From Loktanella atrilutea (lineage in GTDB: Bacteria > Pseudomonadota > Alphaproteobacteria > Rhodobacterales > Rhodobacteraceae), in assembly GCF_900128995.1 (NCBI RefSeq), contig NZ_FQUE01000003.1, positions 186,001 to 250,000 on the forward strand: a stretch of DNA of 64,000 bases. The letters are read 5' to 3'. Positions 48,879 through 63,959 of this stretch are shown here, piece by piece. The notes beneath the pieces were generated by a model. It made no database searches. It saw nothing but the letters and a program-made list of their open reading frames with translations, and was not told the DNA's origin. The translations under genes were made by a program, and so were the position numbers. Numbering within the stretch: position 1 is the first letter of the stretch; each line of letters opens with the position of its first letter.

Positions 48879-50588
48879 ATGGCGGATGCAGGTTCTGCAA
48901 GCCCGAGGCAGGCCGCTTTGCGGGTCCGTCGCCCGACGGTCGTCGATCTGCGCCTTGCATCCGGTCTGGTGCTCTTTGCCTTCGCGCTGACCCATTTGCT
49001 GAACCACGCTCTGGGGCTCGTATCGATCGACACGATGCTTGCAGTTCAGGAGGCGCGGATGATTGTGACGCGCAGTCTGCCGGGCACCGTGATCCTGATC
49101 CTCTCTGCGGTCGTTCATCTCGCCTTGGGACTTGCGCGTTTCACACAGTCGCATATCCGGCGCATGGGATGGCAGAACGCGATTCAGCTGGGCTTTGGCC
49201 TGATGATTCCGATCATGTTGATCCGTCACGTTCTGGGGACGCACGGCGTGAACGCAATGTTCGGCGTGGACGACGACTATCGTTACGCCCTGTGGGTGAT
49301 GTGGCCCGGTCAGGCGATCAACCTTGCACTTCTAATCGGGTTGGTCTGGATCCATGCGTGCATCGGTCTTCACCATTGGCTGGGCGGTCGGGCGTGGTAT
49401 CGCCGCACGTTGCGACTGTGGCAGGGCCTGGCGCTGCTCATTCCCGTATTGGGCTACGCCGGTTTCGTCAGCGCCGCCCGGCTGGAGCAGGCGACCGGCA
49501 CCTTCCGGAACCCGCTAAGCTTGTCACAGTACGCGCGATACGTTGATCTGGTCACGACATCGAACTGGATCTACCTTTGCCTTCTCGCTGCCGCTGCCGC
49601 GGTCTGGGGACTGTTTCTGGTCGCCGATCGGCTGGGATCGCGGATCACGGTGACCTATGTCGACGGCCCCGCCGCGCACGCGCCGCGGGGACTGTCGATC
49701 CTTGCAATCAGTCGCGTGAACCGGATCCCCCATGCCGCGGTTTGCGGGGGTCGTGCCCGGTGTTCGACCTGCCGGGTCCGCGTGATGAAAGGGCAGGACA
49801 ACCTGCCGCCCCCCTCCGACCTTGAACAACGCGTGCTGCGCAGGCTTGGTGCCCCCGCCAACGTGCGGTTGGCCTGTCAGGTTTATCCTAAGGGCAACAT
49901 CACGATCTCGACCCTTTTGCCGGCAAAGATCATGCCGGACACCGATATGGGTATCGACCGCTACCTCTGGGGAGTCGAACGGGACGTGACAGTCATGTTC
50001 TGTGACCTGCGCGAGTTCACGCATCTGACCGAAGGGCGGTTGCCCTATGACATCGTCTTTGTCCTGAACCAGTTCCTTGGCCGTATGGCAGAAACGATCG
50101 AGGATACCGGCGGGTTCGTCGACAAGTTCATGGGCGACAGCGTCATGGCGATCTTCGGCATGGAGGTGTCACCACGAGTTGCCGCACTTCAGGCGATGGC
50201 GGCGGCGCGGGCGATGGACGGCGTCCTTGACGGTCTGAATCAAAGCCTGCGGGAAGCCTTGCCGGCCCCCCTTGCCATGGGCATCGGCATGCACAGCGGT
50301 CCGGCCATTCTGGGCCGGATCGGAACGATGCGGCAGGCGGGCGGCGATACGTCGGCGCTGACTGCACTGGGCGAGACGGTAAACCTTGCGAGTCGGCTTG
50401 AAGGCAAATCGAAGGAACTGGGCGTGCAACTTGTCGTCTCGACCGAGACGGCAGATCTGGCGGGCCTCGGACCTTGCGCCGGTTGCGTTCCGCAAATGGT
50501 CGACGTCCGCGGATTGAGCCATCCGATCAAGGTCTATGCGGTCCGGCGCGCAACTGATCTGCCAGTTAGCGTGGCGGCGACGTCTTAG
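48879..50588 (+). CDS. Membrane-bound class III nucleotide cyclase with [2Fe-2S] domain
   Basis: 569 residues in three parts. Residues 25-252: six hydrophobic helices rich in His (39, 43, 80, 92, 117, 122, 159, 165, 166), like a dihaem succinate-dehydrogenase-type cytochrome b anchor. Residues 255-345: plant-type ferredoxin domain with Cys289-x5-Cys295-x2-Cys298 and Cys333. Residues 365-560: cyclase domain with metal Asp376 and Asp420, base-binding Lys416 and Thr495, transition-state Asn502 and Arg506; all active residues are present and Thr495 suits class IIIb. From memory, Sinorhizobium meliloti CyaC has a quinone-responsive dihaem anchor of this type. Product is probably cAMP. Confidence 0.88.
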   Translation: MADAGSASPRQAALRVRRPTVVDLRLASGLVLFAFALTHLLNHALGLVSIDTMLAVQEARMIVTRSLPGTVILILSAVVHLALGLARFTQSHIRRMGWQNAIQLGFGLMIPIMLIRHVLGTHGVNAMFGVDDDYRYALWVMWPGQAINLALLIGLVWIHACIGLHHWLGGRAWYRRTLRLWQGLALLIPVLGYAGFVSAARLEQATGTFRNPLSLSQYARYVDLVTTSNWIYLCLLAAAAAVWGLFLVADRLGSRITVTYVDGPAAHAPRGLSILAISRVNRIPHAAVCGGRARCSTCRVRVMKGQDNLPPPSDLEQRVLRRLGAPANVRLACQVYPKGNITISTLLPAKIMPDTDMGIDRYLWGVERDVTVMFCDLREFTHLTEGRLPYDIVFVLNQFLGRMAETIEDTGGFVDKFMGDSVMAIFGMEVSPRVAALQAMAAARAMDGVLDGLNQSLREALPAPLAMGIGMHSGPAILGRIGTMRQAGGDTSALTALGETVNLASRLEGKSKELGVQLVVSTETADLAGLGPCAGCVPQMVDVRGLSHPIKVYAVRRATDLPVSVAATS

Positions 50589-52147
50589 GGGTAAAGGGTC
50601 CGATCGCCCCGGTCATGCATCGCACGGTCAAGCGCTTTCTTCAAAAATGCAATGCAGTCGATTATCCATTGTCCCGGCGGATCACTCGCATGTCCTTGAA
50701 TTGATGCGACCTGTCTCAGATCAGCGAGCCGGTCGTGCGAGAGATATGCAAGTGCAGATGCCCCGCCATCGATCATAAGCAACATGTCGCAGATCAGATC
50801 CGACAAGGACATCTCAGGTAGATCGACAGAAGAGGCACCAATCAATCTCGGAAAGTCGGCCACTGTAAGCGACGACAGCAATGGCCAAAGGTCGTCCGGC
50901 ATTTCACGTGTCAGACGGTGCGATTGCGCGCGCGCGCGGTGACGGTGAACAAGTTCGCTGCCGAAATCCTTTGCGGGCGATGGCGCGCCTTCGGCGTTAT
51001 AGATTTCCCGCGCAATCGGGTCAGGCTGCAGATCACCTAAGGAAACCCGGGTCATCGTCAGGGCGCTGGTGCCACCCTCCAGCACTGCGAACGCAGGGGG
51101 GAAGGCACAGGTCGCAGGAAGAGAAATGTCTGTGATTATGCCGGCGCTGGTCATTGCATCCATATGGAGGTGACCGCCAAAGTGCAGTCGCAACCCCGCC
51201 TTGGCCAGTTGCGTCGCGACCGCTGGGCCGGGCATGCGCCGCGCAAGACTGCTGCGTGGCATCACCTTCGTCAGATTCGGCCAGTGAGGCAGGATCGGGT
51301 AGTGCGACACGGGGATCAGCAGCTTGCCACCTGCCGCCGCGCGGCGCGTCACATCAGCGATCCAGTCCACCAGGAACGGCTTGATCCGCAGCACGGCATC
51401 CCATCCGGCATCCGTCGGATCGCGAAACGCCCGCTTGCGCTGGGGGTCGGTGATGCCTGACCGGGGCTCGAAGACGGTCGCGTCCAGTATCAGCAGCCAC
51501 AGGCCGGGTTCCGGTTCAACAAGGTATGAGGCGTCGATCAACCGGTGGGCCGTCGATCCGTCCGGGGCGACCGCTTCGAATGTCCGATCCTCGAATTGGT
51601 CCGACGTGCCGAAAGGGGACTCCCAATGCAGATCGCCCGGGCGGCGACGCAGGCCAAAGTGGGCCACGGGCGCCAACGCTTCCTTTAGTCCAGGGCAGAA
51701 CATGGCTGGCGACAGCACGTCCGCGGCCAGCGCCGGATCGCTCGTCACCAGTTCGGAGGTTCCCGACCCGGTGGCATAGCGGATCGCACGATGCTTACCG
51801 CCGACGGCATAGGCATCATGGTTGCCGGGCAGCACGTAGATCCGCAAACCAAATTGCACTTCTGCATCGTGTAGCAGATCCGACAGGCGACGCAGATTTT
51901 CGATCTGCCCTTCGTCGGAGTAATCCCCGGCGATGACAACGGTCCGGATGCCGCGCGTCGCGATCCGGTTCAGGGCAGCACGCAGCGCCATGGCGCTTTC
52001 ATTGACGGCCCGCCCTGCAGAGCGGGTCTGTTCCCAGTTTAGCAACGCGTGCCGACGCCCGGCAATCGTGACTCCCGTCTGGCCGAACTCACCCGTGCTG
52101 TCGTGGAAATGGGGGTCTGCGATCAGGGCGATACGATGGCGTGTCAC
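50585..52147 (-). CDS. Metallophosphoesterase with long C-terminal extension
   Basis: 520 residues if started at GTG 52147 (AAGG six bases upstream), directly before IALIADPHFHD. Calcineurin-like motifs DPHFHD, GDYSDEG, GNHDAY, SHYP and GGHLHMD fill the first 350 residues. The C-terminal 150 or so residues match nothing I recognise. Substrate unknown. One base after the sugar dehydrogenase, so the two form an operon; convergent with the cyclase with a 4-bp overlap. Confidence 0.85.
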   Translation of the reverse strand: MTRHRIALIADPHFHDSTGEFGQTGVTIAGRRHALLNWEQTRSAGRAVNESAMALRAALNRIATRGIRTVVIAGDYSDEGQIENLRRLSDLLHDAEVQFGLRIYVLPGNHDAYAVGGKHRAIRYATGSGTSELVTSDPALAADVLSPAMFCPGLKEALAPVAHFGLRRRPGDLHWESPFGTSDQFEDRTFEAVAPDGSTAHRLIDASYLVEPEPGLWLLILDATVFEPRSGITDPQRKRAFRDPTDAGWDAVLRIKPFLVDWIADVTRRAAAGGKLLIPVSHYPILPHWPNLTKVMPRSSLARRMPGPAVATQLAKAGLRLHFGGHLHMDAMTSAGIITDISLPATCAFPPAFAVLEGGTSALTMTRVSLGDLQPDPIAREIYNAEGAPSPAKDFGSELVHRHRARAQSHRLTREMPDDLWPLLSSLTVADFPRLIGASSVDLPEMSLSDLICDMLLMIDGGASALAYLSHDRLADLRQVASIQGHASDPPGQWIIDCIAFLKKALDRAMHDRGDRTLYP

Positions 52148-52148
52148 G

Positions 52149-53468
52149 TCAGGCCTTGACGACCTTGTCCATCGGCAGCGATTGCCTGACAAAGGTGTTG
52201 CGCGTGTCGATGATCAGCGGCGCATGATCGGCAATCGCCGCGTAGTCGACATCGTCATGGTCAGTCGCAATCAGCACCGCGTCGAAACCAGAAATCGTGT
52301 CGGCATCAAGCGCCACGGACTGCCGCCCCGCCAGCGTTGGATAGGCGCGGGTATTCGGGATCTGAGGCACGAAGGGATCATGATATGCGGTCGTACCGCC
52401 GCGCGCCTCGATCAGCTCGATCAGCTTCAGTGACGGGCTTTCGCGCGTGTCGGGAACGTTCTTTTTGTAGGCCAGGCCAACCACCAGCACCCGGCTGCGG
52501 CTCAGCGCGCGGCCAAGCCGTATATCCAGCGCTTCTGCCAGACGGGTGACGACATGATGTGGCATGGTCGAATTGATCTCTCCCGCCAGTTCGATGAACC
52601 TGGTGGTCAGATCATATTCACGCGATTTCCAGGTCAGGTAGTAGGGGTCGATGGGGATGCAATGGCCGCCCAGACCGGGACCGGGGTAGAACGGCATGAA
52701 GCCGAACGGCTTCGTCGCGGCGGCGTCGATGACTTCCCAGACGTCGACACCCATAGCCTCGTAGATCACCTTCAGCTCGTTCACGAGGGCGATGTTCACT
52801 GCACGAAAGACGTTTTCGGTGATCTTGACCGCTTCTGCGGTCGCGGTTGACGACACCGGCACGACCTTGGCGACGACGGCGCCATAGAATGCCTGCACAA
52901 GCGCGCGAGCATCTGCGCCGTCCCCGGCGACGACCTTCGGGATGGTCGAGGTATCGTATGACCGGTTGCCCGGATCCTCCCGCTCTGGCGAGAAGCCGAG
53001 GTAGAAGTCCTGCCCCGAACGCAATCCGCCGCGTTCTAGGATCATCTTCACGATACCGTCCGTCGTGCCGGGATAGGTCGTGCTTTCCAGCACGATCAAT
53101 TGATCCGCCCGCAGGGTCGCCGCGATGTCGCCGCAAGTCCGCTCGATGAAGGACAGATCGGGCTCTCTGTGTCGAGTCAGCGGGGTCGGCACGCAGATCA
53201 CGATGACGTCGCAACCGCCGAGACGGCCGAAATCGCAGGTTGCGTCAAAGCGGCCAGCCTCGACCTCTGCCGTCAACGCGGCATCGCTCACAGCCTCGAT
53301 ATAGCTGCGACACGCCTCGATGGCGGTGATTTTGGCGGCATCGGTGTCGAAACCAGTGACAGCGAAGCCCGCGCGGGCGGTCGCTATTGCCAGAGGCAGT
53401 CCGACGTAGCCTAAGCCGATGACACCCACGGTGGCACTGCGGTCGGTGATACGGTCGAGGAGCGCCAT
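52149..53468 (-). CDS. Nucleotide-sugar dehydrogenase (UDP-GlcNAc/UDP-glucose type)
   Basis: 439 residues. NAD-binding GVIGLGYVGLPLA at 15-27, VPTPL, ESTTYPGTT, FSPERED, catalytic Cys270 in GGHCIPIDPYYL and GLAYKKNVPDTRESP. The set resembles WbpA/TviB UDP-N-acetyl-glucosamine 6-dehydrogenases, giving uronic acids for surface polysaccharide. The start at 53468 lacks a strong ribosome binding site; GTG 53498 is an alternative. Divergent from the glycosyltransferase. Confidence 0.88.
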   Translation of the reverse strand: MALLDRITDRSATVGVIGLGYVGLPLAIATARAGFAVTGFDTDAAKITAIEACRSYIEAVSDAALTAEVEAGRFDATCDFGRLGGCDVIVICVPTPLTRHREPDLSFIERTCGDIAATLRADQLIVLESTTYPGTTDGIVKMILERGGLRSGQDFYLGFSPEREDPGNRSYDTSTIPKVVAGDGADARALVQAFYGAVVAKVVPVSSTATAEAVKITENVFRAVNIALVNELKVIYEAMGVDVWEVIDAAATKPFGFMPFYPGPGLGGHCIPIDPYYLTWKSREYDLTTRFIELAGEINSTMPHHVVTRLAEALDIRLGRALSRSRVLVVGLAYKKNVPDTRESPSLKLIELIEARGGTTAYHDPFVPQIPNTRAYPTLAGRQSVALDADTISGFDAVLIATDHDDVDYAAIADHAPLIIDTRNTFVRQSLPMDKVVKA

Positions 53469-53600
53469 GGCGATGTCCGATGCAAGATTCAGTTTCACAT
53501 GCGCCGCCGATAAGGACCTGTCAAGCAAACCGCGCCGCTGGTCGTATCCCCGCCCATTCGCTAGGGTCCCGTCACAGACCCCAGCAGCCAGAGGCTTGTC

Positions 53601-54713
53601 ATGGCCGTGCCGCCCCGGCACATCGCGTTCTATGCACCGCTCAAGGCGCCGGATCATCCCGTGCCTTCGGGCGATCGTCTGATGGCGCGTCAACTGTGGG
53701 CAGCGTTGGACCGTGCGGGCTACAGGGTCACGCTTGCATCTGAACTGCGGGCTTACCTTCGCGATCCCGATGACGTTGCCGCACTGTGCCAGTTAAAGCA
53801 GGATGCGGCGCAGGAGAGGGCGCGCCTCACGGCGCTTTGGGCGACGGATCCGCCGGACCTGATCTTTTGCTATCATCCCTACGTCAAAGCGCCGGACATG
53901 GTCTGCGTCCCATTGGCCCGTAACTACGGCATCCCTTATGTCAGCTGCGAGGCCTCATATTCCCAGCGCCGCAACCATGGCATCTGGACGGAAACGCAGG
54001 CCGACCTGCTGGATACCTTACATCATGCTGCATTCAACATCTGCCTGACCGGGCGGGATCATGCGGGACTGGTCAAGGCTGGCGTGCCGCGACTGCATCG
54101 GATGGCACCCTTCATCGTAACCGAACCCTTCATGACGGATCCGCATCCGCAGGTCGGGCACATCGTCACGGTCGCCATGATGCGGGCAGGCGCCAAGGCA
54201 GACAGCTACATCGCCATGGCGCGCGCTCTCGAACACCTTCCATCGGATCTGGATTGGCATTTAAGTGTCATTGGTGACGGTCCTTTGAGAAGCGACATTC
54301 AGGCCATGTTCGCATCTCTACCCGCGGGCCGGGTCCGCTGGCTTGGTGCACTCGACACGCCTTCGATCGCCTCCTCGCTGTCGCAAGGCGCGGTCTACCT
54401 CTGGCCTGGCTGCAATGAGGCTTACGGTCTAGCCTACCTTGAGGCGCAAGCGGCAGGGCTGCCAGTCATCGCCTGCCGAACGGCGGGCGTGCCGGAGGTG
54501 GTCTCGACCGAAGCCGGCGGAATGCTCGTGCCACCGGACGACCCTGTCGCCATGGCCGATGCGCTGGTATCGCTGCTGCGCGATCCGGCACGGGCATCGG
54601 CGCAGGGCGAGACTGCGCGGCAGCACGTGCTGCAACATCATTCGGAATCCGCTGCGACCGCACGGCTGATCGCGCTGATCGAGGGGCTTTTCATGAGTAC
54701 GAGCACAGCATGA
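53601..54713 (+). CDS. Glycosyltransferase, GT4-like
   Basis: 370-residue GT-B enzyme. N-terminal FYAPLKAPDHPVPSGDR is an unusual acceptor-side start; the donor site EAYGLAYLEAQAAGLPVIAC and GVPEVV follows the E-x7-E pattern. No membrane helix. First gene of a plus-strand run to the window end; its stop overlaps the deacetylase ATG by 4 bp. Confidence 0.85.
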   Translation: MAVPPRHIAFYAPLKAPDHPVPSGDRLMARQLWAALDRAGYRVTLASELRAYLRDPDDVAALCQLKQDAAQERARLTALWATDPPDLIFCYHPYVKAPDMVCVPLARNYGIPYVSCEASYSQRRNHGIWTETQADLLDTLHHAAFNICLTGRDHAGLVKAGVPRLHRMAPFIVTEPFMTDPHPQVGHIVTVAMMRAGAKADSYIAMARALEHLPSDLDWHLSVIGDGPLRSDIQAMFASLPAGRVRWLGALDTPSIASSLSQGAVYLWPGCNEAYGLAYLEAQAAGLPVIACRTAGVPEVVSTEAGGMLVPPDDPVAMADALVSLLRDPARASAQGETARQHVLQHHSESAATARLIALIEGLFMSTSTA

Positions 54714-55435
54714 GCGATATCGTATTGAAGGCGCTCGAAGATCGGGCGGCGCGTGGCCGACCTGCGCGTCTGTGGTGGCGGGACGACGATGCAACGGAAC
54801 CGACGCCAGAGCTTGACTTGCTGCTGGAGTGCGCCGCGCGCCACGCCGTCCCCATTACGTTGGCGGTAATTCCGCAGACGACTGGCATGCCTCTGGCGCG
54901 GCGCCTAGACACGTCGCCGCTTTCCAATGTCGCCGTCCACGGCTGGGCCCATGCGAACCATGCTCCATCGTCCGAGAAAAAGCAGGAACTTGGCATGCAC
55001 CGTGCAGAAGCTGTCGTCATTCGCGAACTCGAAGAAGGTTGTCGAAAACTTGCCGAGCTGCACGGTCCCCGCATGGTACCGGTGCTGGTACCGCCCTGGA
55101 ACCGCATCACCCCAACGTTGCTGCCAAAGCTCGCAGAGGCGGGGTTCCGCGCCGTGTCGGTTTTTGGTCCTGCCAAGTCAGGACCTCTGCCGCAGATAAA
55201 TACGCACGTCGACCTGATCGACTGGCGTGGCACGCGTGGCGGTCGGTCCATTGATGTCCTGATGGCGGATCTGGCAGCGGCCCTGGCGGCGGAGGGTGAT
55301 TCACCGATTGGAATCCTGTCCCATCATCTCGTGCACGATGACGCAGCATGGTCCTTTCTCGACCATCTGTTTGACATGACGCGCAATCATCCGGGCTGCA
55401 TCTGGACCGGCCTGCCCGACCTCCTGCAAAGCTGA
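54710..55435 (+). CDS. Polysaccharide deacetylase family protein
   Basis: 241 residues. WWRDDDA (Asp pair near 25-27) and HGWAHANH (H-x3-H near 77-81) match the NodB metal site, with PPWNRITP as the third motif. No signal peptide, so it acts in the cytosol, perhaps on a lipid- or nucleotide-linked sugar. Coupled to the preceding glycosyltransferase. Confidence 0.82.
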   Translation: MSDIVLKALEDRAARGRPARLWWRDDDATEPTPELDLLLECAARHAVPITLAVIPQTTGMPLARRLDTSPLSNVAVHGWAHANHAPSSEKKQELGMHRAEAVVIRELEEGCRKLAELHGPRMVPVLVPPWNRITPTLLPKLAEAGFRAVSVFGPAKSGPLPQINTHVDLIDWRGTRGGRSIDVLMADLAAALAAEGDSPIGILSHHLVHDDAAWSFLDHLFDMTRNHPGCIWTGLPDLLQS

Positions 55436-55555
55436 AATCGCGTGGCGCCGACGACAACGGCGATGGACAGTGAAATTCCGCAGGTCTACGCTTTGCCACG
55501 CCAAACCACGTCAGTGCGGCAGAAACGTCGAACTTGCGGCAGGGAAACGGGCGGC

Positions 55556-57451
55556 ATGAGCACTGGCAGAACGGACAGGGATCTGCTGCGGATCGAAGAA
55601 CTCAATGTCTCCTTTTCCGTGCAGGGCGGTATGATCGAGGCATTGCGTGGTGTCAGTCTGCGCGTCCTGCCGGGCAAAGTCACGGCGTTGGTGGGTGAAT
55701 CCGGGTCTGGCAAGTCGGTTCTGGGGCAGATGGTGATGGGGCTGCAGCCAGTCTCTGCCAAATCTTCCGGTCGCATCCTGTTCAGCACCCCCGACGCAGC
55801 CCCTCGCGATCTGCTGGCCATGCCGCGAGACGGGCGGGCGATCCGTGCCATCCGCGGCCGTCACATCGGGATGATCTTTCAAGAGCCGATGACCTCGTTT
55901 TCGGCCCTACACACCATCGGCGATCAGGTTGCGGAGGCGCTGCAGGTTCATACTGTCAAATCCTCGGCGGAACGGCGTGCCGTGACGGAGGAAATGCTGG
56001 GCCTTGTCGGTTTCGACGATCCGGCGCGCATCTACCGCATGTACCCGTTCGAACTGTCGGGGGGCATGCGCCAAAGGGCGATGATCGCGATGGCGCTGAT
56101 CTGCGGCCCGTCGCTGCTGATCGCCGACGAGCCGACGACGGCACTGGACGTTACTATTCAGGCGCAGATCCTGACGCTGTTGCGCGACCTGCAGCTGCGG
56201 CGCGACATGGGGATGCTTTTGATCACCCACGATCTGGGCGTCGTTGCCAACGTCGCGGACGAGGTCGTCGTGATCTACCGCGGCAAGATCATGGAAGCGG
56301 GGCCGGTCGAGGCGATCTTCGACAACCCGCAGCATGCCTACCTGAAGGGTCTGATGACGGCGATTCCGCATTTCGACATGACGCCGGGCGAACGCCTGCG
56401 CCCGTTGCGCGACATCCCGCTGGACCGCGCGCGGTTGCACGGCGCCATCACACCCGTAGCACGACCAGCGGATGCGAACCCGGTATTGCTGTCTGTGCGC
56501 GGGCTACGCAAGACCTTTGCGGTCAAGCAGGAACAGTGGGCGCTGCGCGGCAAAGCTGTCGTGGCACGTCCGGCCGTCGACGATGTCAGCTTCGATATCC
56601 TGCGGGGAGAATGTTTGGGACTGGTCGGCGAAAGCGGCAGCGGCAAGACGACGGTCGGCAAGATCCTGATGCGCGGTCTGGTGCCCGACACGGGGACCGT
56701 CACCTATGACGACGGGACCGGGCCAGTCGACGTTCTCCGTGCGAAAGGTGAGGTCCTGCAGCGATTGCGCAAGCGGATCCAGATGGTATTTCAGGACCCG
56801 GTCTCATCTCTTTCACCGCGGATGACCGTCGGCAACATCCTGAGTGAACCCCTTGATATCCATAGTATCGGTACGCCGGAGAGTCGCCGTGACGCCACCG
56901 CCGCATTGTTGGAAGCGATCGGCATGGATCGCAGCGTCCGCAACCGTTACCCGCACAGCTTTTCGGGCGGGCAGCGGCAGCGGATCGGCATTGCCCGCGC
57001 CCTGACCCTCTCACCCGGCCTGATCATCTGCGACGAGCCGGTGTCCGCGCTTGACGTTTCCGTGCAGGCGCAGATCCTGAACCTGCTGAAGGATCTGCAG
57101 CGCGATCTGGGGCTGACCTATCTCTTCATCTCTCACAACCTTGCGGTGGTGGACTACATGGCGGACCGTGTGGCCGTCATGTGGGCCGGACGTATCGTGG
57201 AGATTGCCCCGCGCGAGGTGCTGATGCGCGCACCGGTTCATCCCTATACAAGGGCCTTGCTAGCGGCAGTGCCCTATCCGGATCTGGCAAGGCCGCTGGA
57301 TTTCGGAACCGTCGGCCAATCGACCGCCGAAGCGAGTGCCGCTTGGCCTCAGGCCTTCCAGCCTGATACGGGACTCACTCCACTCGATCTGGGTTCCGGG
57401 CATCATGTGCTTGCCAATCCTGCCGCCGACGCGGCAGAGCTGCGCGCATGA
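55556..57451 (+). CDS. Fused double ATPase of an oligopeptide-type ABC importer
   Basis: 631 residues with two complete ATPase domains. First: Walker A GESGSGKS at 47-54, [18 protein letters not shown]. Second: [26 protein letters not shown]. Equivalent to DppD plus DppF in one chain. ATG 55556 (AGGGAAAC upstream) is preferred over 55442. Overlaps the binding-protein gene by 4 bp. Confidence 0.93.
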
Positions 57452-59331
57452 TCACCCGACGAGACACCCTTGCCGGGCTTCTGGGGGCGGTGGCGGTGCC
57501 GCATATCGGGCGGGCAGAGATACCTTCCAGCGTTAGCAATGTGGCGTCGGCGGCTGTGCCGGGCCTGCCAGATGTCCCGCGGATGCTGGACCTGCCGGCA
57601 ATGGGGCGGCGCACCGGGCGGCGGGGCGGTACACTTCGCATGCTGATCAGCGGCCAGCGCGATGTGCGCCTGATCCCGATCTACAGTTATGCGCGGCTGA
57701 TGGCCTACGGGCCGGAACTCAAGCTGGAACCGGACATCCTCGCCGGGGTGGAGCAGGAGGGCGAGCGGCAATTCACCTTGCACCTGCGCCCCGGTCACCG
57801 CTGGTCCGATGGCTCCCCCTTCACGGCAGAGGACTTCCGCTACACGTTCGAGGACGTGATCTCGAATACCGATCTCTACAAAAGCGGTCTGCCTCCCGAA
57901 CTGATGGCAGGCGATACGCCGGTGGATTTCGCGGTGATCGACGATCTGACGGTGCGCTATACCTTCGCCAGTCCTGTGCCGGCCTTTCTGTCGAAGCTGG
58001 CCGCTCCGCTGCCGACGGTGTTGTTCATGCCCAGCGCGTATCTGAAGCAATTCCATACCTCCTATACCGATGGGGCAGCCCTGACGCGTCTGGCAGAAGA
58101 GCAGAAGGTCGATGACTGGAAGCGACTGCACATGAAGATGTCGCGCTCGATCAGGCCGGAAAACCCCGATCTGCCGACGCTGGAGGCGTGGATGCCCCGC
58201 ACCGCCCCGCCGGCAGAACAGTTCGTCTTCGATCGCAATCCTTATTTTCACCGCGTCGATCAAGCGGGCACGCAATTACCCTATGTCGATCGGATCACGC
58301 TGAACGTCGCTTCGTCAGAGATCATCCTTGCCAAGACAGCGACCGGTGAAAGCGATCTGCAAATGGCGGGGCTGGATTTCATCGACTACACTCTGCTGCG
58401 CCGGGCCGAGAAGGCCCACGACCTGAATGTCGCCCTATGGCGCAAGTCTCAGGGATCTGCGGTTGCCCTGTATCCGAACCTGAACTGCGCCGACACCGTC
58501 TGGCGCAATCTGTTCCGCGACGTGCGGATGCGGCGTGCGCTGTCCGTCGCCATCGACCGGGAAGAGATCAACAAGGCGCTTTTCTTCGGCCTTGGGACCG
58601 AAAGCGCCGATACGGTCATTCCCGAAAGCCCGTTGTTTCGACCCGAGTACGCGACCGCATGGGCTCAGCACGATCCCGATCTGGCGAATACCTTGCTGGA
58701 CGAACTGGGTCTGACGGATCGGGGGGGCGGCAACATCCGTCTGCTTCCGGACGGGAGGCAGGCCGGCATCGTTGTGGAAACTGCTGGCGAAAGTACGCTG
58801 GAAACCGATGTGCTGGCACTGGTGCGCGATCACTTCCGCGCCGTCGGGCTGGCGCTTTATATACGGTCGTCGCAGCGTGACGTGTTTCGCAGTCGCGCGC
58901 TGGCCGGGTTGGTGCAAGTGTCGGTCTGGGCGGGACTGGACAATGGCGTGCCGGATGCCGACACGTTTCCGGGCGAGCTGGCGCCGACGACAGGCGACCA
59001 GTTGCAATGGCCGTTGTGGGGCAGCTGGTATGCCGCTGGTGGCGCTGCCGGAGAGGCGCCTGACTTGCCGGTAGCGCAGCAGATGCTGGATCTGCTGGTC
59101 AAATGGCAGAACAGTGTCGATCCGGAAGATCGCACGACCGTCTGGCACGAAATGCTTGCCCTGAAGGCAGATCAGGTATTTTCTATCGGTACGGTGAATG
59201 GCGCACTTCAGCCTGTCGTGCGGAACGCCCGACTGGTCAACGTGCCCGACAAGGCGCTTTACGGGTTCGAGCCGACCAGCTTCCTTGGCGCCTATCTGCC
59301 CGATACGTTCTTTCTGGATGAAGGGGCGTAA
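57448..59331 (+). CDS. ABC importer substrate-binding protein (SBP family 5)
   Basis: 627 residues, periplasmic. N-terminus [20 protein letters not shown] has a twin-arginine, so export through Tat is likely. Family-5 features: LHLRPGHRWSDGSPFTAEDFRY and VRMRRALSVAIDREEINKALF (in parts). Longer than usual (about 530), with an extra N-terminal linker. Family binds peptides, nickel, sugars or glycans; ligand unknown. Confidence 0.9.
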   Translation: MITRRDTLAGLLGAVAVPHIGRAEIPSSVSNVASAAVPGLPDVPRMLDLPAMGRRTGRRGGTLRMLISGQRDVRLIPIYSYARLMAYGPELKLEPDILAGVEQEGERQFTLHLRPGHRWSDGSPFTAEDFRYTFEDVISNTDLYKSGLPPELMAGDTPVDFAVIDDLTVRYTFASPVPAFLSKLAAPLPTVLFMPSAYLKQFHTSYTDGAALTRLAEEQKVDDWKRLHMKMSRSIRPENPDLPTLEAWMPRTAPPAEQFVFDRNPYFHRVDQAGTQLPYVDRITLNVASSEIILAKTATGESDLQMAGLDFIDYTLLRRAEKAHDLNVALWRKSQGSAVALYPNLNCADTVWRNLFRDVRMRRALSVAIDREEINKALFFGLGTESADTVIPESPLFRPEYATAWAQHDPDLANTLLDELGLTDRGGGNIRLLPDGRQAGIVVETAGESTLETDVLALVRDHFRAVGLALYIRSSQRDVFRSRALAGLVQVSVWAGLDNGVPDADTFPGELAPTTGDQLQWPLWGSWYAAGGAAGEAPDLPVAQQMLDLLVKWQNSVDPEDRTTVWHEMLALKADQVFSIGTVNGALQPVVRNARLVNVPDKALYGFEPTSFLGAYLPDTFFLDEGA

Positions 59332-59334
59332 AGA

Positions 59335-60333
59335 ATGGTGCGCTACATCCTGCGGCGGGTCGTGACGATGATCCCGACGCTGATCCTGATTTCGATGCTG
59401 GTCTTCATCATCATCGAACTGCCGCCGGGGGATTATTTCGAAAGCTACGTTGCAGAGCTTCAGGCGCTGGGCGAGCAGGCGGATCTGGACGAAATCGAGA
59501 TGCTGCGGGATCGCTACGGCTTCGACCAGCCGCAGTACGTGCGTTATGTCCGCTGGGTCGGCGGCATGCTGCACGGCGATTTCGGTTACAGTTTCGCTTA
59601 TCGCCTGCCGGTCAGTGATGTTGTGGGTGACCGCCTGTGGCTGACCTTCATCCTGTCGTTCGTTACGATCATCTTCACATGGGCCGTCGCCTTTCCCATC
59701 GGCATCTATTCCGCCACGCATCAGTACAGCTGGGGTGACTACGGTCTGACGTTCCTTGGCCTGATGGGGGTCGCGGTGCCCAACTTCATGCTGGCGCTGA
59801 TCATGATGTATTTCGCCAATGTCTGGTTCGGGCTGTCGATCGGCAACCTGATGGACAGCGCCTATGTCGATGCGCCGATGAACTGGGACAAGGTCCGGTC
59901 GATCCTGTCGCACATCTGGATTCCCGTGGTCATCATCGGCATGGCTGGCACCGCGGGTATGGTCCGGCGACTGCGGGCCAACCTGCTGGACGAACTGCGC
60001 AAGCCCTATGTCGCGACTGCACGGGCCAAGGGGCTGTCACCGGGGAGGGTGCTCCGCAAATACCCGCTGCGGATGGCCCTGAACTTTTTCATCGCCGATA
60101 TCGGTTCGATCCTGCCCGCCATGATTTCCGGCGCCGAGGTCACTGCCATCGTGTTGTCGCTTGAAACCACCGGACCGATGCTGATCCGCGCGCTGCAAAG
60201 CCAAGACATGTATCTGGCAGGGTCGTTCCTGATGTTTCTCGCGGTGCTGACGGTGCTGGGCGTGCTCGTGTCGGACATTGCGCTGGCGCTGCTCGATCCG
60301 CGGATCCGCCTCGGCCGGGGGACTGCGAAATGA
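59335..60333 (+). CDS. ABC importer permease (DppB family)
   Basis: 332 residues, six helices. MVRYILRRVVTMIPTLILIS start and the cytoplasmic coupling loop ARAKGLSPGRVLRKYPLR are those of DppB/OppB. Starts 3 bp after the binding-protein gene and overlaps the next permease by 4 bp. Confidence 0.93.
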   Translation: MVRYILRRVVTMIPTLILISMLVFIIIELPPGDYFESYVAELQALGEQADLDEIEMLRDRYGFDQPQYVRYVRWVGGMLHGDFGYSFAYRLPVSDVVGDRLWLTFILSFVTIIFTWAVAFPIGIYSATHQYSWGDYGLTFLGLMGVAVPNFMLALIMMYFANVWFGLSIGNLMDSAYVDAPMNWDKVRSILSHIWIPVVIIGMAGTAGMVRRLRANLLDELRKPYVATARAKGLSPGRVLRKYPLRMALNFFIADIGSILPAMISGAEVTAIVLSLETTGPMLIRALQSQDMYLAGSFLMFLAVLTVLGVLVSDIALALLDPRIRLGRGTAK

Positions 60334-61511
60334 CCGCACCGCCACGGGCCGATGGCCTGCCCGACCCGGGAGCGCCGCTCGCGCATTACGTGTCCGATGC
60401 ACCTTTCGATCCGAACCTCGATGACGCCGGCGCGGCCGCGGTGGCAGAGGCGTCGCAACTACGCCTGATGTGGTGGCAGTTCCGCAGGCACCGCATCGCG
60501 GTCGTTTCGCTGGTTTTCCTCCTGCTCCTTTATACCAGCACAATCTTTGTTGAGTTCCTCGCGCCCTATCATCAGGACACCCGGCATCTGGACGACATCT
60601 ACGAACCGCCACAGCAGGTGCACCTTTTTCACGAGGGCGCCTTCGTCGGGCCGTTCGTCTACGGGCGTCACATGACGCTCGACATGGATAATTTACGCCG
60701 CGTCTATGACGAGACGGGCAGCCGCGTCGACAGGCTGCGCTTCTTTTGCCGCGGCGATCCCTATCTGTTCTGGGGTCAGATTCCAGCCAGCCTGCACCTT
60801 GTCTGCCCGGCCGAAGGCGGCACCTTCTTTGCCCTTGGCACCGATCGCCTTGGGCGCGATGTGCTATCGCGGATGATGTATGGCGCCCGGATATCGCTGA
60901 CCATCGGGCTGCTGGGCGTAACCATGAGCCTTGTGCTGGGCATCGTGATAGGTGGGCTCGCAGGCTATCACGGCGGCTGGTTCGATGCCGCCGTGCAGCG
61001 CGTGACAGAGGTGCTGCAGTCCATCCCGTCGATCCCGCTTTGGATGGCGCTGGCGGCGATCATTCCGGTAACATGGAGCCCGCTGCTGGTCTATGTCGGC
61101 ATTACGCTGATCCTTGGACTTTTGGACTGGACCGGTCTGGCACGGGCCGTGCGGTCCAAGCTGCTGTCCCTGCGCGAAGAAGATTATGTGCTTGCCGCGC
61201 GGCTGATGGGGGCAGGCACCGGCCGGATCATCGGGCGACACATGGTGCCGGGGTTCATGTCTCACCTGATTGCCTCGGCGACGCTGACCATCCCCGGCAT
61301 GATCCTCGGGGAAACCGCACTGAGTTTTCTCGGGATCGGTCTGCGACCGCCGATCACCAGCTGGGGTACCATGCTGACCGAGGCGCGCAGCGTGAACATC
61401 GTTGCCATCTATCCCTGGCTGATCTTTCCGGTCCTTCCCGTGATACTGGTCGTTCTGGCTTTCAATTTTCTGGGTGACGGGTTACGCGACGCCGCTGATC
61501 CTTATCACTAA
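60330..61511 (+). CDS. ABC importer permease (DppC family)
   Basis: 393 residues, longer than usual DppC (about 300) through an inserted periplasmic segment after helix 1 (about 75-155, with PPQQVHLFHEGAFVG). The core is typical: GTDRLGRDVLSRMMYGARIS and coupling loop YVLAARLMGAGTGRIIGRH. Partner of the DppB-type protein. Confidence 0.93.
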   Translation: MTAPPRADGLPDPGAPLAHYVSDAPFDPNLDDAGAAAVAEASQLRLMWWQFRRHRIAVVSLVFLLLLYTSTIFVEFLAPYHQDTRHLDDIYEPPQQVHLFHEGAFVGPFVYGRHMTLDMDNLRRVYDETGSRVDRLRFFCRGDPYLFWGQIPASLHLVCPAEGGTFFALGTDRLGRDVLSRMMYGARISLTIGLLGVTMSLVLGIVIGGLAGYHGGWFDAAVQRVTEVLQSIPSIPLWMALAAIIPVTWSPLLVYVGITLILGLLDWTGLARAVRSKLLSLREEDYVLAARLMGAGTGRIIGRHMVPGFMSHLIASATLTIPGMILGETALSFLGIGLRPPITSWGTMLTEARSVNIVAIYPWLIFPVLPVILVVLAFNFLGDGLRDAADPYH

Positions 61512-61545
61512 CCGCCTTTTCAGCGTCCCAGACAGGATATCCGCG

Positions 61546-62721
61546 ATGCCAGACCGGAACCGCAACCATCGCGTCCTGATGTACAGCCATGATACCTTTG
61601 GCCTTGGCCACCTGCGCCGCTGCCGCGCCATTGCGCAAGCGCTGGTGCAGGATCACCGCGGCATGATGGTGCTGATCATCTCCGGCTCTCAGATCGCCGG
61701 CGCGTTCGATTACCGGGCGCGTGTCGATTTCGTAAAAATTCCCAGCGTGATCAAGCTGCGCAACGGCGAATACGCCACGATGTCGGAACATATCGATCTG
61801 GCCGATACGATCCACATGCGTCGGTCGATCATCCGGCACACGGCGGAGTCCTTCCGCCCCGACATCTTCATTGTCGACAAGGAACCGATGGGTCTGCGCG
61901 GCGAGGTCGAGGAGACACTGGCGTTCCTGAAGGAGCGCGGCACGACGTTGGTGCTAGGCCTACGCGACGTAATGGATGCACCCCACCTGTTGGAGGCCGA
62001 ATGGAAGCACAGCGACATGCTGTCCAAGATTGACCGCTACTTCGATCATATCTGGGTCTACGGGCCGCCGGATTTCCATGACCCGCTCAGCGGCCTCGAT
62101 GTCCCGCCTGGCGTGCACGACCGGATGGATTTCGTGGGGTTCCTGCAGCGCAGCGCGCGCGGCGATCAGCCGTCGCAACATCAGCCGGATGGCGACTACA
62201 TCCTTGTTACCACCGGCGGTGGCGGCGACGGGGCCGACCTGATCGAAAACGTGCTGCGCGCTTTCGAGCACGACCCCACGTTGACCACACGTACGCTGAT
62301 CGTGCTGGGCCCCTACATGACAGCAGACCTGCGGGCTGGGTTCACCCAGCGGGGGACCGCCTTTCCACATGTGGATGTCATCGACTTCGACCCCCGGATG
62401 GAGGAGTTGACCGCAAACGCGCAGTCCGTCGTCGCCATGGGGGGCTACAATACCTTCTGCGAAATTCTCTCCTTCGACAAACCCGCCCTCATCGTGCCGC
62501 GGATCGCGCCGAGAGAGGAGCAACTGCTTCGTGCCAGTCGTGCTGCAGAACTGGGGATGGTCGACATGCTGCTGCCCGGCGATGCGGCCGATCCGGCCCG
62601 CATGGCAGAAGCGCTGCGCCGCCTACCGCACCGCAAGCGGCCATCGGAGGGGTGGGACGGCTTGACGCTGGACGGGCTGCACAACATCTCGGACCTCGTC
62701 GGCAAGGAGCTCGGGCGGTGA
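61546..62721 (+). CDS. Glycosyltransferase, GT28/MurG-like
   Basis: 391 residues of GT-B fold. YSHDTFGLGHLRRCRAIAQA near the N-terminus, VTTGGGGDG at the interdomain start, and GGYNTFCEILSFDKPALIVPR as sugar-nucleotide site. ATG 61546 has AGGAT upstream; 34 bp after the permease. Overlaps the next gene by 4 bp. Confidence 0.83.
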   Translation: MPDRNRNHRVLMYSHDTFGLGHLRRCRAIAQALVQDHRGMMVLIISGSQIAGAFDYRARVDFVKIPSVIKLRNGEYATMSEHIDLADTIHMRRSIIRHTAESFRPDIFIVDKEPMGLRGEVEETLAFLKERGTTLVLGLRDVMDAPHLLEAEWKHSDMLSKIDRYFDHIWVYGPPDFHDPLSGLDVPPGVHDRMDFVGFLQRSARGDQPSQHQPDGDYILVTTGGGGDGADLIENVLRAFEHDPTLTTRTLIVLGPYMTADLRAGFTQRGTAFPHVDVIDFDPRMEELTANAQSVVAMGGYNTFCEILSFDKPALIVPRIAPREEQLLRASRAAELGMVDMLLPGDAADPARMAEALRRLPHRKRPSEGWDGLTLDGLHNISDLVGKELGR

Positions 62722-63959
62722 CGCAACAGCGGTTGGTTGTCGTCGTCAAAGGCTATCCGCGCCTGTCGGAAACCTTCATTGCACAAGAACTGCGCGGGCT
62801 GGAGCTTGCTGGATATAAGCTGACCATCGTGTCGCTTCGCCACCCGACGGACCGGAAACGGCATGCCGTCCATGACGAGATGCAAGCAGACCTGCTTTAT
62901 CTGCCCGAATACCTGCATCATGAACCCCTGCGCGTGTTGCGTGGCCTTGTGGCGACTGCCCGGCGGGCAAGGTTCTGGCGGTTGCTTCCAGCTGTCGTGC
63001 GAGATTTCTTGCGCGATCCCAGCCGGAACCGGTTGCGCCGTCTTGGACAGGCCGCTGTCCTCGTGCGCGAATGGCCGTCCAAGAATGCTTTGCTTCACGC
63101 GCATTTTATCCATACGCCGGCGTCTGTCACGGATTACGCGGCGCGGATCATGGGAATGGATTGGTCCGTCTCTGCCCATGCCAAGGACATCTGGACCCAA
63201 GCCGCGTGGGACCTGCGCGGAAAGTTAGCGAGGGCGCGCTGGGCGGTCACCTGCACGGCCAGCGGGTTTGCCCATCTGCAGGGTCTGGCGCGCGAGCCGG
63301 CGCGCGTGCACCTGAGTTATCATGGCCTTAACCTTAATCGCTTCCCGCCCTTCGAGGCCCGACGTGAACTGCGCGACGGACAAGATCGTGCGGACCCCGT
63401 GCGACTGGTCAGCGTCGGGCGCGCTGTGCCGAAAAAAGGCTATGATGTGCTGCTTCGAGGATTGGCGCAGCTGCCCGGCGACCTGTACTGGACCTTCGAT
63501 CACATGGGCGGTGGCGGGGATCTGCAAATGTTGCAGGCGCTTGCAAAAGATCTGGGCATTGCCGACCGGTGCCGGTGGCGCGGTGCCGTCGATCAGAGCG
63601 AGGTGCTGGCTGCCTACCGCGCAGCAGATGTCTTCGTGCTTGCCAGCCGGATCACCGCCGACGGCGACCGCGACGGCCTGCCCAACGTGCTGGTCGAGGC
63701 CGCAAGCCAGACTCTCGCCTGCGTTGCAAGCGATCTGTCGGGCATTCCCGAACTGATCTCCGATCCTTCCCTCGGCTGGCTCGTGCCATCGGAAGACCCC
63801 GCCGCGCTCGCCCTGACCTTGCAAGAGGCGATCACGCGACCGGACCTGCGTGCAGCAAAGGGTGCAGCCGTCGCGGCAAAGGTGCGTCAGCACTTCGACT
63901 ATCGTAACAGTGTTGCGCAGTTAACGTGTCTGTTTGAATCCGGCGGTGCGCGGCCATGA
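62718..63959 (+). CDS. Glycosyltransferase, GT4 family
   Basis: 413 residues from GTG 62718, which overlaps the previous stop (GTGA) and has AAGGAG upstream. VVVKGYPRLSETFIAQEL is typical of colanic-acid-type transferases (WcaL-like), SVGRAVPKKGYDVLL starts the donor domain and DGDRDGLPNVLVEAASQ is the sugar-nucleotide motif. Confidence 0.88.
   Translation: MTQQRLVVVVKGYPRLSETFIAQELRGLELAGYKLTIVSLRHPTDRKRHAVHDEMQADLLYLPEYLHHEPLRVLRGLVATARRARFWRLLPAVVRDFLRDPSRNRLRRLGQAAVLVREWPSKNALLHAHFIHTPASVTDYAARIMGMDWSVSAHAKDIWTQAAWDLRGKLARARWAVTCTASGFAHLQGLAREPARVHLSYHGLNLNRFPPFEARRELRDGQDRADPVRLVSVGRAVPKKGYDVLLRGLAQLPGDLYWTFDHMGGGGDLQMLQALAKDLGIADRCRWRGAVDQSEVLAAYRAADVFVLASRITADGDRDGLPNVLVEAASQTLACVASDLSGIPELISDPSLGWLVPSEDPAALALTLQEAITRPDLRAAKGAAVAAKVRQHFDYRNSVAQLTCLFESGGARP

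Follow-up and report, generated by a model that had tools for sequence, protein, structure and literature searches.

Can a bacterium report the redox state of its quinone pool as cyclic AMP (cAMP) and, if so, on what does that cAMP act? The question is raised by one gene (48879 through 50588, forward strand) in a 64,000-nucleotide stretch of Loktanella atrilutea DNA (contig NZ_FQUE01000003.1, positions 186,001 to 250,000; herein the window). An earlier reading of the sequence by itself (herein the initial annotation) had proposed a membrane anchor of six helices, a ferredoxin domain and a class III cyclase in one chain. The explanation that we find best overall, and consider likely, is a CyaC-type redox-sensing adenylate cyclase, set by quinone, heme and a [2Fe-2S] cluster, to which a less certain local cAMP circuit is attached. 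The frame opens with ATG and encodes 569 residues; its third-position G+C (0.74) lies within the range of three flanking genes per side (0.69 to 0.76), and with this normal coding bias it is a real gene. Pfam assigns Fer2 (1.1e-7, residues 267 through 338) and Guanylate_cyc (PF00211, 1.4e-14, residues 369 through 523), both over the curated cut-offs, and within the Protein Data Bank (PDB) the catalytic part comes closest to the bacterial adenylate cyclase 2w01 (6.1e-25). These matches and the anchor model described below agree with the three-part chain.

Conservation was assessed over 72 cyclase loci, the window's own included. Seventy have an intact full-length frame (L011 and L069 do not), and removal of two duplicates left 68 distinct sequences. 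The ferredoxin-type cysteines (C289, C295, C298, and C333) and the catalytic residues (D376, K416, D420, T495, N502, and R506) stand at the positions named by the initial annotation. All four cysteines, in a CX5CX2C...C arrangement, are invariant (68/68), as are D376, D420, T495, N502, and R506, while K416 is kept in 67/68; the proposal of four cluster cysteines and a full catalytic set thus stands. Nine anchor histidines had also been counted, and all are present (His 39, 43, 80, 92, 117, 122, 159, 165, and 166). As heme ligands, however, they reduce to four likely candidates, because only H39, H80, H117, and H159 are invariant (68/68); H43 is kept in 48/68 and H92, H122, H165, and H166 are variable, which rules out all nine as ligands. 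By sequence, the residue pattern is that of a diheme anchor, an adrenodoxin-like [2Fe-2S] center and an active cyclase.

A structure prediction for the anchor, as the initial annotation had suggested, was made with AlphaFold2 (residues 1 through 262, 12 sequences; mean predicted local distance difference test [pLDDT] score 74, which is moderate). The model has long helices at residues 21 through 47, 67 through 90, 98 through 128, 144 through 168, 178 through 206, and 215 through 253, and each of the first four holds one of the invariant histidines. In structural alignments the top six rows are all cytochrome subunits from either fumarate reductase or succinate dehydrogenase (Z 11.6 to 14.4), and the next row falls to Z 6.3. 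The best matches, 5xmj_C (Z 14.4, 187 residues, root-mean-square deviation [rmsd] 5.2) and 2bs3_C (Z 14.1, 201 residues, rmsd 5.7), tie the fold to the cytochrome b subunits of the quinol:fumarate reductases of Desulfovibrio gigas and Wolinella succinogenes. Such cytochrome subunits carry two hemes. The likeness is one of fold: identity in the aligned part is 13 to 17%, and the window protein carries a cyclase, rather than acting as the partner of a flavoprotein/Fe-S dehydrogenase. Two points count against the assignment: the best Foldseek row, 2bs4_C (W. succinogenes FrdC), has a probability of 1.00 but an E-value of 0.077, and by the alignment tool's own caution helical models can reach a best Z near 14 without kinship. 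A sequence profile search of the PDB with the anchor found no cytochrome, and in Pfam one of 12 anchor members made contact with Sdh_cyt (E 0.026). Given the caution over helical models, we rely on the gap in Z, the family of the matches and the four histidines taken together; on this basis the model supports a diheme-type anchor with the Sdh/Frd cytochrome b fold.

The initial annotation had likened the protein to the diheme-anchored CyaC of Sinorhizobium meliloti, and the alignment confirms it: residues 24 through 565, nearly the whole chain, align colinearly with CyaC (SMc01818) at 39% identity. Domain order and all fourteen key residues (four histidines, four cysteines, and six catalytic positions) are shared, the residues also with two Rhizobium plasmid copies. 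The ferredoxin domain is not an addition to CyaC, as had been implied, since Fer2 is found in S. meliloti CyaC itself (7e-8). The S. meliloti record used is annotated cyaC and its neighbors include rutR, with two transposase genes between; we take rutR to be a TetR-family gene. These neighbors fit the SMc01818/SMc01819 setting given in the consulted sections of PMC10463352. A tree of 69 cyclases places the window sequence in a clade of 14 members (herein the close clade; SH-aLRT support 100), of which the named ones belong to Paracoccaceae and Roseobacteraceae; S. meliloti CyaC lies outside it, on a long branch that makes its placement unsure. The same domain order is described, in the text seen of PMC4821796 (2016), as "cluster 1" of 30 alpha- and betaproteobacterial class IIIb cyclases with six transmembrane helices. 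Its example, Rhodopseudomonas palustris Q132R4, combines an Sdh/Frd cytochrome b-like anchor bearing four histidines with a ferredoxin domain and a class IIIb cyclase, as here; Q132R4 is likened by its description, and we know of no domain-level difference between cluster 1 and the window protein. Judged by sequence, the window protein is therefore a further member of the CyaC-type cyclases, of an architecture already known.

For the mechanism, the published behavior of CyaC offers the best guide. In the portions of PMC10463352 consulted, the heme b of S. meliloti CyaC is oxidized and reduced by ubiquinone with an effect on activity, and activation follows oxidation. In the window protein, quinone and quinol would exchange electrons with two heme b groups held by His39, His80, His117, and His159, and redox state, directly or via the [2Fe-2S] domain, would determine how active a homodimeric class III cyclase is; its product would be cAMP, probably in larger amounts when oxidized, as reported for CyaC. 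We infer heme and cluster occupancy, redox control and cAMP as the product by analogy; electrons may pass in the order heme, cluster, cyclase. Overall, the likeness to CyaC leaves the redox mechanism a well-supported prediction.

What the cAMP would act upon is less certain. Genes more telling than those inside the window lie 1 to 5 kb past its end (window-equivalent 65095 through 69302, L086). They encode a metallo-β-lactamase (MBL)-fold protein of 274 residues, a cyclic nucleoside monophosphate (cNMP)-binding protein of 158 residues and a protein of 941 residues resembling ATP-binding cassette (ABC) exporters (L086:6478-9303, reverse strand; window-equivalent 66477 through 69302). The 158-residue protein, about 15 kb downstream of the cyclase, has no other Pfam domain and is the genome's best PF00027 match. 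Glu84 and Arg93 of its binding cassette are invariant in 23/23 cNMP proteins of such modules, this one included. A profile of these proteins aligned to four of the genome's nine PF00027 loci and not to the other five; among the four, only the 158-residue protein keeps both residues, with Gln for Glu in L079, the Arg lost in L078 and no Glu in L080. A looser cassette pattern also caught noncanonical strings in L078 and L079. As far as tested, that is, where the loci align, the 158-residue protein would be the genome's single PF00027 member whose cAMP cassette is intact. The cyclase is likewise the genome's one PF00211 protein, and no class I cyclase (PF01295) was found there.

The ABC-exporter-like protein is apparently inactive as an ATPase, judging by its motifs: in an alignment of 31 such proteins, on which the counts depend, the Walker A lysine is missing from 21 and the Walker B glutamate from 22. 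The complete GxxGxGK[ST] motif occurs in one of the 31 and in neither the S. meliloti nor the pRL11 copies. By eye, the ATPase half also contains three successive "ENLLFG"-like stretches. Only a few kb separate all three genes of the trio from the cyclase in six loci of the close clade (L008 through L012 and L016), and the same holds for genome G175 (L090) and for two distant loci from Hyphomicrobiales (L014 and L015). The MBL-fold hydrolase was considered as a cAMP phosphodiesterase and set aside, its nearest solved relatives by sequence being RNase Z/ElaC enzymes.

A candidate for removing cAMP adjoins the cyclase. The downstream, convergent gene encodes a metallophosphoesterase whose best solved relative by profile is Lmo2642 (6.8e-13), which we take to be a cyclic-nucleotide phosphodiesterase. 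Its predicted fold (mean pLDDT 68) also matches Lmo2642 best (Z 22.8 across 362 residues, vs. 19.3 for the following match). The metal-binding pattern D-x-H, GD, GNHD, H, GHxH is present, and its residues (D26, H28, G89-D90, G123-N-H-D126, H297, and G340-H341-x-H343) are invariant in 7/7 sequences. Sequence and model thus make it a plausible candidate cAMP phosphodiesterase. That the enzyme instead acts on a glycan, a lipid or an ADP-ribose-type substrate, leaving no source and sink pair for cAMP, is nonetheless a serious contender, only somewhat less probable than its opposite. The fold is common to GpdQ, sphingomyelinase-like enzymes and the zebrafish dimetal phosphatase 2nxf. The metal-motif spacing here differs from the class III signature quoted in PMC4320098, the consulted portion of which places Lmo2642 in the metallophosphoesterase superfamily. 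Genome G231, moreover, has the metallophosphoesterase, at a distance of about 17 kb from the ABC protein, but no CyaC-like cyclase. On the other side, no solved structures are closer in sequence than Lmo2642, Rv0805, and Icc, and of the 13 close-clade loci that leave room for the gene, 8 have it adjoining the cyclase in convergent orientation (in L005, L006, L011, L013, and L090 it is missing from that place). The metallophosphoesterase occurs in 11 of 394 genomes sampled from the family, 7 of which have an orthologue of the ABC protein (9e-10).

In the same 394 genomes, CyaC-like genes (threshold 1e-60) were found in 48 and ABC orthologues in 12; the latter were defined by at least 39% identity and more than 540 bits, all remaining matches reaching at most 36% and 402 bits. 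All six genomes with close cyclases have the ABC orthologue, vs. 6 of the other 388 (Fisher 2e-10). From this linkage in the close clade, the census of cyclase and receptor and the plausible phosphodiesterase, all read from sequence, we infer a local redox-to-cAMP circuit in the glycan locus. The cAMP would act mainly on the 158-residue protein, which may govern the neighboring ABC-exporter-like protein and the glycan genes, and the convergent phosphodiesterase-like enzyme would remove the cAMP. In its fullest form, the signal would run from oxidized quinone through cAMP to a stand-alone receptor that is not a transcription factor, and on to an ABC-like switch gating the surface-glycan locus, with one or more local phosphodiesterases providing insulation and an interchangeable input sensor. 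The sensor seems interchangeable because loci of other lineages carry other cyclases, with a dCache sensor or other anchors. This complete scheme we regard as possible but, on balance, doubtful.

Several observations weigh against the circuit. The census of cyclases in the window genome covered PF00211 and PF01295 and no other cyclase classes, and DUF3095 proteins, whose function is unassigned, occur elsewhere in that genome as well as in the Rhizobium locus. Distant CyaC-like cyclases of the same family have the ABC orthologue in 2/42 cases, which is not above background (Fisher 0.13); this counts against a general CyaC-ABC link within the family, and the cyclase does not need the glycan locus. 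In three genomes (G515, G396, and G231) the locus has no CyaC-like gene at the threshold, and the similar locus on S. meliloti pSymB, in another strain, holds a different cyclase of 449 residues. Of the 14 close-clade loci other than the window's (L004 through L013, L016, L087, L088, and L090, with L089 repeating L010 and L091 repeating L007), 12 have a second class III cyclase immediately upstream of the CyaC-like one (e.g., L008:5212-6576), and most of the cAMP there need not come from CyaC. This second cyclase is absent from the window genome. In all 12 sequences a Lys replaces its transition-state Arg.

Co-occurrence was also counted across the class. Among 385 genomes the cyclase is present in 110 and the ABC protein in 117 (both, 92; cyclase alone, 18; ABC alone, 25; neither, 250), and with one genome per family (138) the counts are 31, 5, 9, and 93 in the same order. 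On the cyclase tree the co-occurrence label changes 6 times, vs. 20 in shuffles, a strong clustering by which shared ancestry accounts for part of the pattern; the comparison included no unrelated control gene. In the 24 genomes with both genes on one contig, the window's included, the two are at most 103 kb apart in 13 and more distant, up to megabases, in 11 (for G497 and G768 the second CyaC-like match was taken, and circularity was ignored). Outside the close clade, linkage of cyclase and locus is patchy.

This patchiness favors a reading in which the cyclase feeds a global CRP-like regulator and its glycan neighbors are accidental. S. meliloti CyaC is reported, in the parts of PMC10463352 consulted, to work with the transcription factors Clr and CycR. 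We nevertheless think it unlikely here. A TetR-type gene stands beside S. meliloti CyaC, but a gene of that type, such as cycR, was looked for next to the window cyclase and is not present; the neighbors are a D-2-hydroxyacid dehydrogenase gene upstream and the metallophosphoesterase gene downstream. In the other eight PF00027 loci the two cassette residues were not seen together (five being unaligned to the profile), and linkage of cyclase and ABC protein in the close clade is far above chance. Weakest is the proposal that anchor and cluster sense oxygen, nitric oxide or Fe-S status, or are structural with the enzyme gated otherwise: a cytoplasmic [2Fe-2S] center could itself be the sensor, and quinone binding in the window protein rests on analogy, but the invariance of the four histidines and four cysteines suggests that both cofactors are under selection, and the response of S. 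meliloti CyaC to quinone redox state (PMC10463352, in the sections consulted) makes this very improbable.

If the local circuit holds, its interest lies in specificity. The text seen of PMC10463352 calls it unclear how cAMP signals are kept separate in bacteria that have many adenylate cyclases, and quotes 28 cyclases for S. meliloti, vs. the single PF00211 protein of the window genome. That protein and the one PF00027 protein with an intact cassette, as far as tested, share one locus. The ABC protein of that locus is in 117 of the 385 class genomes, and its gene set is also on S. meliloti pSymB and R. johnstonii pRL11, so that a specific effector for CyaC-type cyclases becomes directly testable in tractable organisms. 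The circuit would also give a first handle on the role of the glycan locus, namely respiration-coupled control of the cell surface.

The features of the window are collected in Table 1. A glycan locus and a metallophosphoesterase gene had been noted as a new context for such a cyclase; the link is right, but it is not confined to this genome and recurs in other alphaproteobacteria. A comparable set of genes surrounds the ABC protein, itself mostly accompanied by the cNMP gene, both in the window genome and in many, though not all, other genomes read. This set, of varying completeness, comprises glycosyltransferases, a deacetylase-like protein, a nucleotide-sugar dehydrogenase and an Opp-type transporter; little of it lies within the stretches taken from G077, G194, G577, and G609. 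Similar loci occur on S. meliloti pSymB and on Rhizobium plasmids, among them pRL11 of Rhizobium johnstonii 3841, and that of Rhizobium sp. NLR16a holds a CyaC-like, a dCache and a third cyclase. The S. meliloti cyaC gene itself has no glycan module in the 17.7 kb read around it. A literature search, judged by title and the start of the abstract, returned no paper about such a locus.

Table 1. Features of the cyclase and its neighborhood, in window coordinates
Feature	Position	Strand	Evidence
CyaC-type adenylate cyclase gene, 569 aa	48879..50588	+	Open reading frame, Pfam, conservation, CyaC alignment
Predicted cytochrome b-like membrane anchor, residues 21-253; likely heme ligands H39, H80, H117, H159	48939..49637	+	AlphaFold2 model, fold match, invariance
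[2Fe-2S] ferredoxin domain, residues 267-338; Cys 289, 295, 298, 333	49677..49892	+	Fer2, Cys invariance
Class III cyclase catalytic domain, residues 369-523	49983..50447	+	PF00211, 2w01, catalytic residues
Metallophosphoesterase, class III cyclic-nucleotide phosphodiesterase-like, convergent with the cyclase; start probably ~18 codons inside	50585..52192	-	PF00149 1.7e-10, Lmo2642 profile and fold
UDP-glucose/GDP-mannose dehydrogenase; start probably ~75 codons inside	52149..53693	-	PF03721, PF00984, PF03720; present in relatives' loci
Glycosyltransferase family 4	53601..54713	+	PF13692 3.3e-23
Polysaccharide deacetylase-like	54710..55435	+	PF01522 0.0011, under its cut-off; recurring neighbor
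Opp-type double ATPase	55442..57451	+	Recurs in locus; L189 relative with ABC_tran twice and oligo_HPY
Substrate-binding protein of the same Opp-type transporter	57448..59331	+	Annotated so in syntenic records
Two permease genes	59335..61511	+	Annotated so in syntenic records
Two glycosyltransferases (GT28-like, GT4)	61474..63959	+	

The pRL11 locus offers a possible genetic link. Its CyaC-like protein, RL_RS30090, is 37% identical to the window protein with the same key residues, and the locus resembles the window's in its glycosyltransferases, deacetylase, MBL (RL_RS30115), cNMP and ABC proteins; unlike the window's, it has an extra cyclase and a DUF3095 gene. Counting locus tags by fives from repA makes RL_RS29975, a major facilitator superfamily transporter, number 43, in agreement with how pRL110043 is described in the consulted text of PMC11406972; by the same count RL_RS30090 would be pRL110066 and RL_RS30115 would be pRL110071. 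Both appear in a review table (PMC6266702, seen in part) as two of 14 loci that transposon mutagenesis had yielded in strain UPM1137, with nickel and cobalt as the metals. If the mapping is right, the CyaC-like and MBL genes of this R. leguminosarum locus come from one nickel/cobalt transposon study, and the probability that a locus of 26 genes would be hit twice in this way is ~0.001 (assuming a genome of 7100 genes). In the part of PMC11406972 consulted, root attachment of the pRL110071 mutant is 20 to 33% of wild type, and the gene is classed as essential or growth-defective in at least one growth condition.

Some minor observations concern the same genes. Fnr-type control of the cyclase gene was considered and rejected: a search for TTGAY-N4-RTCAA with at most one mismatch found no site nearby, and the window's 4 sites compare with 4.8 expected by chance. 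DUF3095 proteins (L189:27414-28589, L193:1453-2628, and L006:4390-5649) show a "SDIVGST...FVFGGDG" pattern that is cyclase-like by eye; a profile comparison of four against five sequences found no similarity to cyclases. In genome G077 (L174) the ABC-like gene has two in-frame stops and no CyaC-like gene accompanies it at 1e-60; this is perhaps a decaying copy of the module. Quinol oxidase genes (cyoABCD) lie near the cNMP gene of a Rhizobium plasmid locus in which a CyaC-like cyclase is present (L195:14331-18585; also L190). In the window genome, genes for formate dehydrogenase-type and xanthine dehydrogenase-type molybdoenzymes, recognized by eye, stand beside the ABC-like gene (L086:9765-18596).
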